In this document: positions 34,555 through 39,654 of the stretch, in pieces | Layout of the letters: each line of letters opens with the position of its first letter | Position numbering within the stretch: the first letter of the stretch is position 1 | NCBI GenBank assembly: GCA_023256355.1 | Contig: JAGDXJ010000002.1 | Location: 1-39,654 of the forward strand | DNA: 39,654 nt | From: Nitrososphaerales archaeon | GTDB lineage: Archaea > Thermoproteota > Nitrososphaeria > Conexivisphaerales > UBA164 | Direction: 5' to 3' | The notes under the pieces: model-generated | The model's input: the letters and a program-made list of their open reading frames with translations, nothing else | The model's database searches: none | What the model was told of the DNA's origin: nothing | Translations under genes and position numbers: made by a program

Positions 34555-34565
34555 TGGGCCCGGTG
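34555..34565 (+). repeat. Left attachment site core (attL)
   Basis: Exact 11-bp match TGGGCCCGGTG to the tRNA-Met 3' end at 39603-39613, direct orientation. Confidence 0.8.
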
Positions 34566-34613
34566 ACACTATATATAAACTTAACTAAATCTTTATAAAC
34601 AGTTAGACAATAT

Positions 34614-34627
34614 GTTAATCAATTAAC
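34614..34627. promoter_or_regulatory. Candidate operator palindrome GTTAAT-CA-ATTAAC
   Basis: 6-bp inverted repeat about 27 bp downstream of TATA-like TTTATAAA (34592-34599), upstream of the Xis-like gene. Confidence 0.4.
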
Positions 34628-34663
34628 GTATTACTATGCATTAGGTGCTTTATAATCATTGCT

Positions 34664-34846
34664 ATGAGTGGTAAAATGTACACCGTAAAGGAGCTGGCAA
34701 TAATGCTGAACGTTAGCCAGAGCACAGTGCGAAGAATGATCTATAAGGGGCAGATTAAGGCCGTCAGGTTGCCAACCGGCACTTTAAGAATTCCGGAAGA
34801 TGAAGTAGCTAGGTTATTGAGACCAGAAGGGGGTGATAAATCATGA
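34664..34846 (+). CDS. MerR/excisionase-like HTH protein
   Basis: MYTVKELAIMLNVSQSTVRRMIYKGQIKAVRLPTGTLRIPEDEVARLL, the excisionase-family HTH signature. Confidence 0.85.
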   Translation: MSGKMYTVKELAIMLNVSQSTVRRMIYKGQIKAVRLPTGTLRIPEDEVARLLRPEGGDKS

Positions 34847-35208
34847 ATGAAAATAAATCAACTCACATATGGCACATGCCAGGTAATATTACAATAAAAG
34901 AAACAGTTATAGGTACCAGTGAACTTGAATTTGAGCCAGACAACTGCTGTGAACAACTGGAAGCTGAGACCAAGGAACTAAAGGCAGAAATAGATAGGTT
35001 GAAAGCTGAGCTGGTTGCAAAGGATAAGGAGATAGCAGAGCTGAACGATAAATTAAGTGCAATGTTCCCGGTTGAAGAAAAGATAATAGGTGAAACAAAG
35101 CTTGAGAATAACGAAAGCAAACAAGACAAAAAGAAACCGACACAAAAAGACAAAGAAAGCAAATCGGCAAACACGAAAGATGAAGAGGAGTTTGACTTCA
35201 ACTTTTGA
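34843..35208 (+). CDS. Coiled-coil protein with acidic C-terminal tip
   Basis: 4-nt overlap with the HTH gene; EQLEAETKELKAEIDRLKAELVAKDKEIAELNDKL; ends KDEEEFDFNF. Confidence 0.7.
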   Translation: MNENKSTHIWHMPGNITIKETVIGTSELEFEPDNCCEQLEAETKELKAEIDRLKAELVAKDKEIAELNDKLSAMFPVEEKIIGETKLENNESKQDKKKPTQKDKESKSANTKDEEEFDFNF

Positions 35209-35378
35209 ATGCGAGAGATTTAAAAGTAGAAAATGAAAGGCTCAAAGAGGAGCTGAAAGCCAGAGATATTGAAATAAGCGAACTACGAAAGGAAATAGAT
35301 AGGCTCAAGACTAGGATGAGTACAATGCGCGATTTTGACATAAAAATCTATGGAGTAACAAAGCTTGAAGGCGTGTAA
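35205..35378 (+). CDS. Small (57 aa) coiled-coil protein related to the upstream gene
   Basis: TTG start overlapping the upstream TGA; LNARDLKVENERLKEELKARDIEISELRKEIDRLKTRMSTMRDFDIKIYGVTKLEGV. Not in the supplied ORF list (shorter than 60 aa). Confidence 0.6.
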   Translation: MNARDLKVENERLKEELKARDIEISELRKEIDRLKTRMSTMRDFDIKIYGVTKLEGV

Positions 35379-35392
35379 ACCACGCCATTTTT

Positions 35393-36166
35393 TTATTGAT
35401 TGAATGGTGCGGGTTTCATGGTTAAAGTTATCCCTTCGTAGGTGCGCCAGTCAGTTGTTATGATGATCAGTTTTCTAACAAATTTGCGTGCCTCGATCAG
35501 CAGGGCCCTTAGGTTTGTGTCGTCCTTGAACCTGTGCCCTTCCTCAACCACTATAACCCAGGACTGGAGAGCCCCTGAATTCTTGATGAAGTTCAGGTGT
35601 GAAAACAAGGTTGCTGCTTCTGCTTTTGATATTTCAACGTTGCTGTTTGGCACAAAGCGGATCCGCAGGCCATTGGCACTGCCCCAATCTATGCCAAAGA
35701 ATTTGCCCAGGTCTATGCGCTTGAATTCTTGGTATTCATTGTCCACGTCCAGGATAAAGGCGTTCCTTGGTCCGATGGTTGGCGCTGCCGGCCCCGGCCT
35801 TGCATTCATGTAGCGGTCAATGAGAGCCTTTACGGTTGTGGTCTTACCCGAACCGCTTTCGCCAGTTATGATTATCGGTCTGGTGCCGGACCTTTCAAAT
35901 GCCTGCTCATAGTTGGCCACGGGTACAACACCTTCCCTTTCAATCACATTGGCCATGTAAGCTATGACAGAATCAACTGTCCTGAAGCCAAGCTTAATTT
36001 TTAGCGCTTTTACTTTACGCATTGTGCCTAATGAAATGTGGTAATTGGTAAAGACGTTAAGCTCCCTTGGGTCTCCCGGTGGGATCACTTCATTCCAGTA
36101 ACCACGTTTGTGCTTTGACTCTGAATTGCCCTCTGGATTATTAAGCGTCATATACATATAAAGCAC
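35393..36166 (-). CDS. P-loop ATPase (HerA/FtsK-like) with putative N-terminal RHH domain
   Basis: ITGESGSGKTTTVKAL (Walker A), WVIVVEEGHRF (Walker B), LIEARKFVRKLIIITTDWRTYEG; N-terminal YHISLGTMRKVKALKIKLGFRTVDSVIAYMANVIERE. Confidence 0.75.
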   Translation of the reverse strand: MLYMYMTLNNPEGNSESKHKRGYWNEVIPPGDPRELNVFTNYHISLGTMRKVKALKIKLGFRTVDSVIAYMANVIEREGVVPVANYEQAFERSGTRPIIITGESGSGKTTTVKALIDRYMNARPGPAAPTIGPRNAFILDVDNEYQEFKRIDLGKFFGIDWGSANGLRIRFVPNSNVEISKAEAATLFSHLNFIKNSGALQSWVIVVEEGHRFKDDTNLRALLIEARKFVRKLIIITTDWRTYEGITLTMKPAPFNQ

Positions 36167-36249
36167 ATAAATGTTAAATTTTGATTAATAAAATCTTCAA
36201 AATTTATTATTTTTGAATAACATAAATAATTGCAAGAACGATTTGGAAT

Positions 36250-36732
36250 TTAAAACCTCACAAATATAGTATGTGCTAGTTTGTAAAGCGAGTATAAAAT
36301 TGAAAAGATTATTCCTAATTCTAATGTGGTAATAAACCAAGCAAGAGAGTAAGCAAACATTGTGTAGCCAAACGAATATGTTATTGGATAAAAGGAGAAT
36401 TCAGTTACTTGAAAATATGGCACAACGAAAATACCCAGTATGAATGCTAAAACACTTGATATAAAAACCATAGCGAATAACTTTGCAACGTCATATATTT
36501 TGGAAATAAATAGGTAATACCTAAAACCGAACCATAGGCCAGATATAGCGCCTAGGGCATCAATTATATACCAAACATAAATAACTATCGAATTTTGAAT
36601 AAAATAAAGTATAATTGTTGCAAATATCCAAGTGATAAATATTATGAATAATAATTTATTAAATTTGCTAAAAGGTCGTCTGGTATACCTCCTTGGCCTA
36701 TAATGTTTATGATTGTGCCTATATTGCCACAT
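36250..36732 (-). CDS. Multi-pass membrane protein with basic N-terminus
   Basis: 160 aa, 4-5 hydrophobic segments (LLFIIFITWIFATIILYFI, LFAMVFISSVLAFILGIFVV and others); N-terminal HNHKHYRPRRYTRRPF. Confidence 0.65.
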   Translation of the reverse strand: MWQYRHNHKHYRPRRYTRRPFSKFNKLLFIIFITWIFATIILYFIQNSIVIYVWYIIDALGAISGLWFGFRYYLFISKIYDVAKLFAMVFISSVLAFILGIFVVPYFQVTEFSFYPITYSFGYTMFAYSLAWFITTLELGIIFSILYSLYKLAHTIFVRF

Positions 36733-36860
36733 TTTATATTGGTTATTATAAAGAGCGCGCTAATACTATATAAATAATTCTTTACCAAAAAAATCATAAT
36801 CATAAGATAAATGAACTAACAAAAATGGTTAATGGCACCTATTATGGTCAAGATAAACCT

Positions 36861-37028
36861 TTACTTTTTCCTACCTTTTTTAAAATGTATCCCTGCCATA
36901 TCGGCCACGCGTTTAAATGGGTCATTAGCATAAGTGCCGTTCCTATTCCTGTAACGTGAATTAGCAACTCCAAATAAGGCATCCGTGTTTTCTTCCCAGA
37001 CACTGCGTTTAGGCTTTTTATTAGCCAA
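36861..37028 (-). CDS. Small basic protein (55 aa)
   Basis: TTG start immediately after the nuclease stop; LANKKPKRSVWEENTDALFGVANSRYRNRNGTYANDPFKRVADMAGIHFKKGRKK. Not in the supplied ORF list. Confidence 0.5.
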   Translation of the reverse strand: MANKKPKRSVWEENTDALFGVANSRYRNRNGTYANDPFKRVADMAGIHFKKGRKK

Positions 37029-37030
37029 TT

Positions 37031-37591
37031 TTATCCCAACCCCATTCCTTTAGAAAGCTTACGGTCTAATTCTCTCGCTTTTGAAAACAGATCATCGTTA
37101 GAACTTGTTCTGGGTTTCGGCTTGGTTACTTTACCTGGCGACTTGGTTATTACCAAAATCTGCTTTGTTTGAACTTCCCTGAAGCTTCCCCATAATGGGT
37201 CTGGCTTCACATAAGACTTTGATAATTTCTGCATGCTGTACTCCACATCTCTTATAACTCCTTGGCTTACTTTCCCAAGCAGCACAACCAAAACCTTTTC
37301 ATAATCTTCTAAATAATCCTGAACCTGCCCTGTTAATCTGTTTATTTCACTTTTACTGTGCAGATTAAGCTTAAGCTCTATTCCTATTTTCCCGTCAATC
37401 CCAATATCTGCTAAACCCCTTCCATCTTCTGGCCTGATGCGGTGCGTTTTGTTAAGGTGTTTATCCAAAAAACCAATCAAGTCATCCCTGTACTGACGTT
37501 CCTCACGCATATTCCAATCAGGCTGCCATTCATGTTCTATCTTATCACTCACATATTCAAATAATGTCGGCTGGTTGCCGAAATTGAACAT
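37031..37591 (-). CDS. PD-(D/E)XK-like nuclease
   Basis: ADIGIDGKIGIELKLNLHSKSEINRLTGQVQDYLEDYEKVLVVLLG matches the D-x(n)-ELK restriction-endonuclease-like core. Confidence 0.65.
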   Translation of the reverse strand: MFNFGNQPTLFEYVSDKIEHEWQPDWNMREERQYRDDLIGFLDKHLNKTHRIRPEDGRGLADIGIDGKIGIELKLNLHSKSEINRLTGQVQDYLEDYEKVLVVLLGKVSQGVIRDVEYSMQKLSKSYVKPDPLWGSFREVQTKQILVITKSPGKVTKPKPRTSSNDDLFSKARELDRKLSKGMGLG

Positions 37592-37639
37592 ATAATATTA
37601 GTCAATTTGCATAAATATAAGCGTTCTGCTTACTGAGCG

Positions 37640-38167
37640 TTAGTATTTTATCAGCTCATCTGTGTACAAAATCCTTTCATAGCGTAGTGGGCTCGCGTCA
37701 AACACCTGGCCTATGATAGCGAGCGGTACTTTGTGCCTTAGGGCTTTGAAAATGAAATAGTGACGGAAATCTGGTGCCTTGAATTCACTTATCTTTTTGA
37801 TTGAAATCTCAACTGCGCGTGTGCTTACTTTGTAGTTTTTTATGTTTGAGTTAATTTCCTGTTCATGTTCTAGGGAAATTAAGCCGTAGGCTCTTAACAA
37901 GCTCAATGAAATTGTCCTAGTGCCGGCATGGGATTTCCAGAGAGAACGCTTAAGGTTTTGTATGGCAATGAGCTGGCCGTCCTTGTCAAACACTAGGTTG
38001 GCCGGTGTCAATCTGGCAACATCTGCTAGCCTTAGGCCGCAGTCGGACATGAACAGCACGGCCAATTTGACCTTTTTACTCTTTATGCGGTCTATTAGAT
38101 TATTTACCTTATTCTCGTCGAGCTCGCTTATTTGTACAAAGTCTGCCATGCATAGATAAAGCCACAA
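37640..38167 (-). CDS. Short tyrosine recombinase, catalytic domain only
   Basis: DCGLRLADVARL (Arg I), NLKRSLWKSHAGTRTISLS, PDFRHYFIFKALRHKVPLAIIGQVFDASPLRYERILYT (Arg II and candidate Tyr). Probable start MADFVQISEL. Confidence 0.7.
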   Translation of the reverse strand: MWLYLCMADFVQISELDENKVNNLIDRIKSKKVKLAVLFMSDCGLRLADVARLTPANLVFDKDGQLIAIQNLKRSLWKSHAGTRTISLSLLRAYGLISLEHEQEINSNIKNYKVSTRAVEISIKKISEFKAPDFRHYFIFKALRHKVPLAIIGQVFDASPLRYERILYTDELIKY

Positions 38168-38755
38168 AATAGGTCAAAAACGGGTCATTTTTGGGTCAGT
38201 TTTGGCAGTTTATCATCGTTTCATGAGCCATTTTTCATATATGACAAAGCAAAGTGAAATTTGTATTTTTCTATCACATATACGAAAAATCATGAAATGG
38301 ATAAAATTTCGCATATAACACAGAAAAATACGTAAAAACACAGCGAAACACCCCCTAAAGCCGTTCACCATTCTTAATACGCGTACGCGGTTAGCTAACT
38401 ATTTTTTTGTTATACTAAAAAATCAAAAAACCCCACCATGACCGATTTTTTAAAGTCTGCAATCATACCGGTTATCCTGGACCCTGTTTTACTCCATGAC
38501 AGTTATGGTATTTGGGATTGCCAGACCTACCCTCTATGGTCCAATATGCCGGACTTTGGATATAAGGTCAAAGCCGGGCATAGGTCAGGGTATTTCCCAT
38601 TTAGGGGGCAACTAAGCCGGCGTGGTCTAGCTAAACAGAGGGGGTATTTTGTGCCAAAGAGTGTAGGTGTCCAGGTGCCAAATTACCTAGTCAATGCACG
38701 GCCCTGCAGACTTGAGGCCAAGATTCTGGGCTGGTTTGCTGGGCCGGCATAGCAG
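38168..38755. other. Structured non-coding region of the mobile element (candidate origin/recombination/regulatory region)
   Basis: 588 bp between the two recombinase ORFs; AT-rich repeated motifs on the left, inverted and direct repeats on the right; no convincing ORF. Confidence 0.5.
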
Positions 38756-39598
38756 TTAAGACCCTGGAATGGCCTTTGGCGTAATCGACTGCCCAAACTG
38801 GTTGAGAAACAGCGGTTCACTCTTAGGCATTTCGCCGGGCTTAACCGGAAGCATTGCCGGCGTTCCCCTTTTGAGCGTAAGATAATCCCTTATGGCATTG
38901 ACGGCGTCAATGTCAATGAACGTGTAATATTCAATTTCCCTTTTGGGCCTCACCACCTTAATTTTGATTGGACATACTCGACACGTCGACACCTCCCACT
39001 GGTTGGGATCGCTACCCAGTGCATCGGCAAGCTGCAGATAGCCATAATAGTTGAAACTCAAAGCAAGCGTTGAGGCGTCCATGCCACTCTGAAACATTAT
39101 CAGGATTATTGCCCTGTCCCTGATGCCGAGTTTTGCCTTTGTCAGGACCTGTGCCACGTATTCAATGTAATCCTTTGCAGTCACCCTAGTTGAAAGCCAG
39201 TTAGAACCAACCTTTATGCTCAGTGTTTCGTGGGACAGCTCAATGTGGTTGTGCGCATAGAACGACCTTATCCTCTTGTACTGCTTGAGGGCTGTCTCCC
39301 TGCGCCCTTCGTAGGCATTGGCATATTCCAGCGCCTCATTCAGGTGCTTAATCAGTGTCCGGTTGTTGCCGTCAAGGCATTCATTTATCATTTTGTCAGG
39401 GTCAGATTCAAGCCCCCTCGCCTTTCTCCACCTCAGATACCTGGCAAATGAATAAAGGGCCGACACCTGGCTGTCCCCTGAAGCAAGCTTTGTAAGCCAC
39501 AACTTGACGCTCTCTTTCGCTTTCAATTCGTCAAGGTCATTGTAAACTTTGGGATGTCCTCTCATATGATTACTTAAAGCGGAACATGAACTGTTCAT
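38756..39598 (-). CDS. Integrase-like protein truncated before the C-terminal catalytic motifs
   Basis: 280 aa; N-terminal SAM-like region, then AKLGIRDRAIILIMFQSGMDASTLALS and REIEYYTFIDIDAVNAIRDYL...PLFLNQFGQSITPKAI, stopping where HxxR...Y would follow. Start codon lies 5 bp from the tRNA 3' end. Confidence 0.75.
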   Translation of the reverse strand: MNSSCSALSNHMRGHPKVYNDLDELKAKESVKLWLTKLASGDSQVSALYSFARYLRWRKARGLESDPDKMINECLDGNNRTLIKHLNEALEYANAYEGRRETALKQYKRIRSFYAHNHIELSHETLSIKVGSNWLSTRVTAKDYIEYVAQVLTKAKLGIRDRAIILIMFQSGMDASTLALSFNYYGYLQLADALGSDPNQWEVSTCRVCPIKIKVVRPKREIEYYTFIDIDAVNAIRDYLTLKRGTPAMLPVKPGEMPKSEPLFLNQFGQSITPKAIPGS

Positions 39599-39602
39599 AA
39601 TT

Positions 39603-39654
39603 TGGGCCCGGTGGGACTTGAACCCACGACCGCCCGGTTATGAGCCGGGCGCTC
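39603..39654 (-). tRNA. tRNA-Met (CAT), 3' part; the 5' part is outside the window
   Basis: Reverse complement: ...GAGCGCCCGG-CTCATAA-CCGGGCGGTCGTGGGTTCAAGTCCCACCGGGCCCA; anticodon CAT, T arm GTGGG-TTCAAGT-CCCAC, discriminator A. Confidence 0.9.

Follow-up and report, generated by a model that had tools for sequence, protein, structure and literature searches.

A tRNA-Met element in an archaeal genome carries a 3′-truncated integrase, of a family that may have relocated Arg I, and a separate mini-recombinase gene

The DNA analyzed here, referred to as the window, is a stretch of 39,654 nt that makes up one whole contig of a 1.19-Mb archaeal genome, 82% complete. An element of 5.05 kb (34555-39613) lies in it inside a tRNA-Met gene (Table 1). 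The anticodon of this gene is CAT, as in the intact tRNA-Met of the same-genus genome G004, to which the window tRNA is identical at 52 of 52 bases. In G004 the site is empty, tRNA-Met(CAT) following directly after the flanking peptidase gene with no element (L114), and the attR candidate of the window sits where the tRNA gene begins in that empty site. Since the peptidase gene and tRNA-Met are adjacent in G004, and the two copies of TGGGCCCGGTG in the window lie about 5 kb apart, the element measures 5,048 bp. Two marks of a tRNA-integrated mobile element were found: the tRNA 3′ end is repeated directly at the opposite end of the element, and a relative has an empty site. An Rfam scan of 34.5-39.65 kb returned the tRNA and, at those same positions, a plastid match below threshold, and nothing else. 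An att repeat of 28 bp was also tried and was rejected, a single copy being found; the short 11-bp repeat fits.

Table 1. Features of the element and its insertion site, with positions in the window.
Feature	Position	Strand	Evidence or remark
attR candidate TGGGCCCGGTG	34555-34565		Exact 11-bp direct repeat of 39603-39613 (tRNA 3′ end)
HTH_17 (MerR/excisionase-type) DNA-binding protein near attR	34664-34846	+	PF12728, E=7.9e-13
P-loop ATPase (AAA / HerA-like), element backbone	35393-36166	-	PF13401, 8.5e-7; PF01935, 1.1e-4
Nuclease-like protein	37031-37591	-	Probable PD-(D/E)XK motif GIDGKIGIELK, spotted by eye
31-bp conserved block between mini-recombinase B and the nuclease gene	37604-37634	-	29/31 bases identical in G010:C22
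Mini-recombinase B (175 aa), a catalytic domain alone	37640-38167	-	Arg46, Arg135, Tyr168 (or Tyr163)
Imperfect inverted repeat upstream of B	38263-38331		Arms 38263-38287 and 38307-38331
Integrase A, 3′-truncated, 280 aa	38756-39598	-	Core-binding domain plus the first part of the catalytic domain
attL candidate TGGGCCCGGTG	39603-39613		Within tRNA 3′ end
tRNA-Met(CAT), integration target	39603-39654	-	Rfam RF00005, 40.4 bits; 5′ part lost at contig end

The element would have entered the 3′ end of tRNA-Met(CAT) by site-specific recombination across a core of about 11 bp. Thaumarchaeal integrated elements have short att repeats, typically of 8-26 bp (PMC6563490). The element resembles the cryptic members of that group (PMC6563490) in its small size, its position at a tRNA 3′ end, its 11-bp att repeat, and an integrase next to the tRNA; it differs from them in that its 5 kb hold a truncated integrase together with a lineage-specific module of mini-recombinase, nuclease, and ATPase. 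As a small mobile element, it is an ordinary decaying integrant. The HTH_17 protein beside attR is possibly an excisionase or recombination directionality factor. The P-loop ATPase has a homolog in G010:C22 (L109), in the same gene order. A Pfam search of the nuclease-like protein returned no match, and its homolog in G008:C108, 72% identical, adjoins the mini-recombinase there. The 31-bp block between the nuclease gene and B is probably an archaeal promoter with a TATA-like box. The inverted repeat upstream of B pairs at 20 of 25 positions, a value matched by none of 60 first-order Markov shuffles, and is possibly a regulatory or recombinase-binding site and, as such, a candidate target of B. 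Small coiled-coil ORFs, a membrane protein, and a 55-aa ORF complete the list.

A first-pass annotation of this DNA had singled out two recombinase-like ORFs, here called integrase A and mini-recombinase B, and both are present on the minus strand as it described them, A being the one next to the tRNA. Integrase A reads SGMDASTL where GxR is expected, with Asp174 (codon 39077-39079) in place of Arg I, carries Arg217-Pro-Lys219 (R-x-K) in its hairpin, and ends in ITPKAIPGS, before any HxxR, GH, or Tyr. As it stands, with no HxxR, His/Trp, or Tyr nucleophile, it does not qualify as a tyrosine recombinase. Relatives of A occur in 21 of 101 related genomes. The best intact one (L033/L004, JAFLXO010000004.1) has 412 aa, begins 3 bp beyond a tRNA-Thr gene, and is 45% identical to A up to its residue ~278, where the homology stops; its own C-terminus goes on through SHECRD and FLGH to a conserved Tyr. 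The first-pass annotation had named relatives running into a normal HxxR...Y C-terminus as the sign of a pseudogene, and this protein, with HECR, LGH, and Tyr, is such a relative. In alignment A3, K, H, R, H, and Y are invariant, and the intact relatives, the 412-aa protein among them, have Lys, HxxR, GH, and Tyr. Truncation by a stop codon alone was rejected, there being no homology past the stop. The missing C-terminal third was sought in the window and in the rest of the genome and was not found, and at 82% completeness the piece could be unassembled. Integrase A is therefore best described as it appears, a 3′-truncated, decaying integrase. A rearrangement would have removed HxxR, GH, and Tyr and spared the core-binding domain and the N-terminal half of the catalytic domain, and A would be unable to cut DNA because those three elements are lost.

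Archaeal elements in tRNA genes frequently split their integrase on integration, in the manner of the SSV viruses (PMC8371274), and the open frame of A extends upstream into the 3′ half of the tRNA. With a suicidal integrase of this type, Int(N) would lie at one end of the element and Int(C) at the other. Here, however, A and B lie at the same end, A has the N-terminal domain and has lost its C-terminus on the side away from the att site, no C-terminal fragment was found near attR or elsewhere in the genome, and the intact 412-aa relative begins just after its tRNA, so that this origin of A is scarcely credible.

The same genome holds a second 3′-truncated Asp-type integrase (G000:C26, L023 1459-2289, minus strand), 68% identical to A, which adjoins an apparently intron-containing tRNA and is cut after DIDAV, where it is fused to unrelated sequence overlapping a 224-aa ORF. 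The truncation points differ, at ~277 in A and 234 in the second copy. Integrase remnants also occur in G008, G012, and G018, some with stops, those of G008 and G012 with stops or frameshifts. Together these copies show repeated decay. The frame of A has no internal stop, and comparison with the second copy gives a dN/dS of ~0.08. One might ask whether truncated A has been retained as a DNA-binding regulator, for instance one that represses excision or blocks the att site: its 280 codons are free of stops, and the second, independently truncated copy is open as well. The ratio of ~0.08, however, mostly reflects the time that the two spent as full-length genes, the truncation points do not coincide, the sister remnants contain stops, and the end of the second copy is fused to sequence of unrelated origin. 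A regulatory role for A is accordingly rated improbable, and we retain the description of A as a decaying integrase.

Arg I is described as almost invariable among tyrosine recombinases, and Cre does not accept even Lys at that position (PMC4499138). The first-pass annotation had treated its absence from A as a degeneration of the individual protein; instead, it turned out to be a fixed trait of a family with intact members. In all 31 family rows of the alignment the Arg I column holds D, G, or A, and the Arg of GxR is absent. The surrounding residues are nearly identical to those of canonical members (SGMDVSTL versus TGLRVSTL), and in intact members of ~500 aa the Asp is invariant and is accompanied by R-x-K, HxxR, GH, and Y. 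An iterative profile alignment gave D in this column, G in the protein of phage psiM2 and in others, and A in that of Geoglobus pleomorphic virus 1. The R-x-K motif, in which an Arg precedes the Lys of the beta-hairpin by two residues, is present in 30 of the 31 rows without Arg I, against 3 of 31 rows with a normal Arg I, the assignment of both the Arg I column and the hairpin Arg resting on sequence alignment. The lone exception, the Asp-type L020 (G013:C108), reads N-x-K, with RxxK and GK, and has lost HxxR too; with its whole active set altered, it is probably inactive or repurposed. At the Arg I position the residue shifts between D, G, and A, and the Arg of R-x-K stays fixed.

These counts have to be read against the phylogeny. 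In the tree, 30 of the 31 Arg-I-less rows fall in one clade (90/82 support), with psiM2 apart on a long branch. The Fisher value for the association of D/G/A with R-x-K, 7e-13, ignores relatedness, and an independent-pairs test of the association of Asp with R-x-K had one informative pair only, from which no P value was drawn. Because the Arg-I-less rows are essentially one clade, the association comes close to having arisen once in evolution and does not represent many independent events. The clade was seen in tRNA-integrated elements of several families in the phylum, in Geoglobus pleomorphic virus, and in phage psiM2. The integrases of Geoglobus pleomorphic virus 1 (Ala) and of the Methanobacterium phage psiM2 (ORF29, Gly) align with the family of A and share its R-x-K, HxxR, GH, and C-terminal Tyr; they differ from it in belonging to viruses of other archaea and are distant, at 22-29% identity.

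The presence of R-x-K in 30 of 31 rows, against 3 of 31, suggests by analogy that in the family of A the function of Arg I has moved to the Arg of R-x-K. In the CTnDOT integrase, the substitute Arg stands two residues before the catalytic Lys. That integrase has no Arg I, and an Arg farther downstream serves in its place (PMC8138268). Like the IntCTnDOT subgroup (CTnDOT/ERL, Bacteroidetes; PMC8138268), the family of A has no Arg I in the canonical place and is otherwise complete as a recombinase, and where a downstream Arg functionally substitutes in IntCTnDOT, a conserved Arg downstream is a putative counterpart here. Unlike CTnDOT, the family is archaeal, targets tRNA 3′ ends, and has Asp, Gly, or Ala at Arg I; the relocation in it is read from sequence alignment, and no sequence kinship with CTnDOT is claimed. 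The intact relatives are probably active integrases that acquired D, G, or A in place of Arg I, and the Arg of R-x-K may have taken over the charge stabilization of the scissile phosphate, as reported for the CTnDOT integrase. We therefore lean, with some reserve, towards an archaeal recombinase clade that has lost Arg I and would use the hairpin Arg of R-x-K in its place. An AlphaFold model of an intact relative from a four-row alignment (pLDDT 42) was too poor for use, a PDB sequence search gave no usable relative, and scans of viral contigs gave no relative. What is new here is that the unusual residue at Arg I characterizes the family. Active-site arginine relocation has so far been reported for the bacterial CTnDOT group; this, if true, would be an archaeal case. 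A whole archaeal family with Asp, Gly, or Ala at Arg I, complete in other respects, would join CTnDOT as a second natural experiment in the rebuilding of this active site. Motif scans that demand GxR would label intact A-type integrases as degenerate.

The sequence of mini-recombinase B agrees with the first-pass description: it contains CGLRLADVARL (Arg46), PDFRHYF (Arg135, with Pro at the His of HxxR), and the C-terminal block FDASPLRYERILYT. The internal ATG at 38147-38149 is the more probable start, with a product of 169 aa, since the alignment with a relative begins there. Against PF00589, B scores 23.8 bits (E=4.3e-5), just under the curated cut-off of 27.1. Two further genomes of this family, G008 and G010, contain relatives of B, the G008 homolog being 53-56% identical; among 400 genomes of the phylum, matches other than that of the window itself were weak, and the one read fully is a canonical recombinase. 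B was thus found only in archaeal family f1. Arg46, Arg135, and Tyr168 are conserved in the relative L029, and the conserved hairpin Lys (K to R), the His of HxxR (Pro/Thr), and GH (Asp/Ala; Asp/Ser in L029) are absent; one relative is without Arg II too. Against the G008 relative, dN is 0.37 and dS is saturated, so that the reading frame of B is constrained. Its neighborhood is conserved as well: the nuclease-like gene follows B in both G008 and G010, and G010 also keeps the 55-aa ORF and the ATPase in order. A single-sequence AlphaFold model of B (pLDDT 37) was too poor for use.

In alignments, the canonical L032 type is the best match to B. B resembles the archaeal XerA-like / Phage_integr_3 integrases (L032; G000:C7) in its domain and GLR motif, and the G000:C7 protein in its short architecture; unlike them, it is missing the Lys, His, and His/Trp and is the gene of a narrow group of mobile elements. 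Shortness alone does not make B odd, because catalytic-domain-only recombinases with complete motifs exist in the same genus. Could B be an active minimal recombinase, serving the element as resolvase or replacement integrase? Arg I, Arg II, and the C-terminal Tyr are kept across two genomes at ~55% identity under constrained evolution, the 186-aa protein of G000:C7 is a canonical recombinase of the same genus with a catalytic domain only, and an inverted repeat lies upstream of B. On the other side, the Lys (K to R), the His of HxxR (P or T), and GH (D/A or D/S) are altered, a relative has lost Arg II in addition, and a core-binding domain is missing. Activity of B is doubtful because the usual Lys, His, and His/Trp are absent, and we regard an active enzyme as unlikely. 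The first-pass suggestion of a decaying integrase with a compact replacement held in outline, there being a decaying integrase with a compact companion; a replacement role for that companion is unlikely. B is judged to have a recombinase fold with little catalysis or none, and may be regulatory.

Taken side by side, A and B look complementary, a core-binding domain with half a catalytic domain facing a catalytic domain alone, and they lie 588 bp apart in the same orientation, both without stops. The first-pass annotation had accordingly offered a bipartite recombinase, in which A would bind the att site and B would supply the catalytic chemistry in trans, and a catalytic unit with a DNA-binding partner. 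A truncated Int(C) of SSV1/SSV2 is reported to recombine in vitro with reduced efficiency, but Int(N) and Int(C) of SSV2 showed no interaction in solution (PMC8371274). Neither suggestion is supported by comparison with the relatives. Intact relatives of A hold the whole C-terminal catalytic set themselves, and that of B is incomplete, without hairpin Lys, His, and His/Trp. The two proteins come from different integrase subfamilies, B being closest to the canonical L032 type. Asp-type integrases elsewhere occur without B, which is confined to family f1. In G010:C22 (L109/L030), a decayed canonical integrase (GGFRIGEIL) stands beside tRNA-Asp, joined to a B remnant; as the tRNA-side integrase there is this canonical one, B is not tied to A. 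A and B are probably not halves of one enzyme, and the two-part recombinase is very hard to reconcile with these comparisons. We instead consider, with a probability of roughly three in four, that a tRNA-Met element carries a truncated A, whose intact relatives have a putatively relocated Arg I, and a separate gene B that does not complement it. B would then be a lineage-restricted recombinase fold without a core-binding domain, derived from another integrase subfamily and kept together with the nuclease-like gene and the ATPase; it probably works as a DNA-binding protein or a very weak recombinase, and not as the missing half of A.

Elsewhere in the genome, G000:C7 (L037 1450-2010, +) encodes the 186-aa catalytic-domain-only XerA-like recombinase, with complete R, HxxR, GH, and Y, which may be the chromosomal resolvase of the lineage without a core-binding domain. 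Short XerA-like versions are also present in the same-genus genomes G002, G003, and G004, and in G009 and G013.
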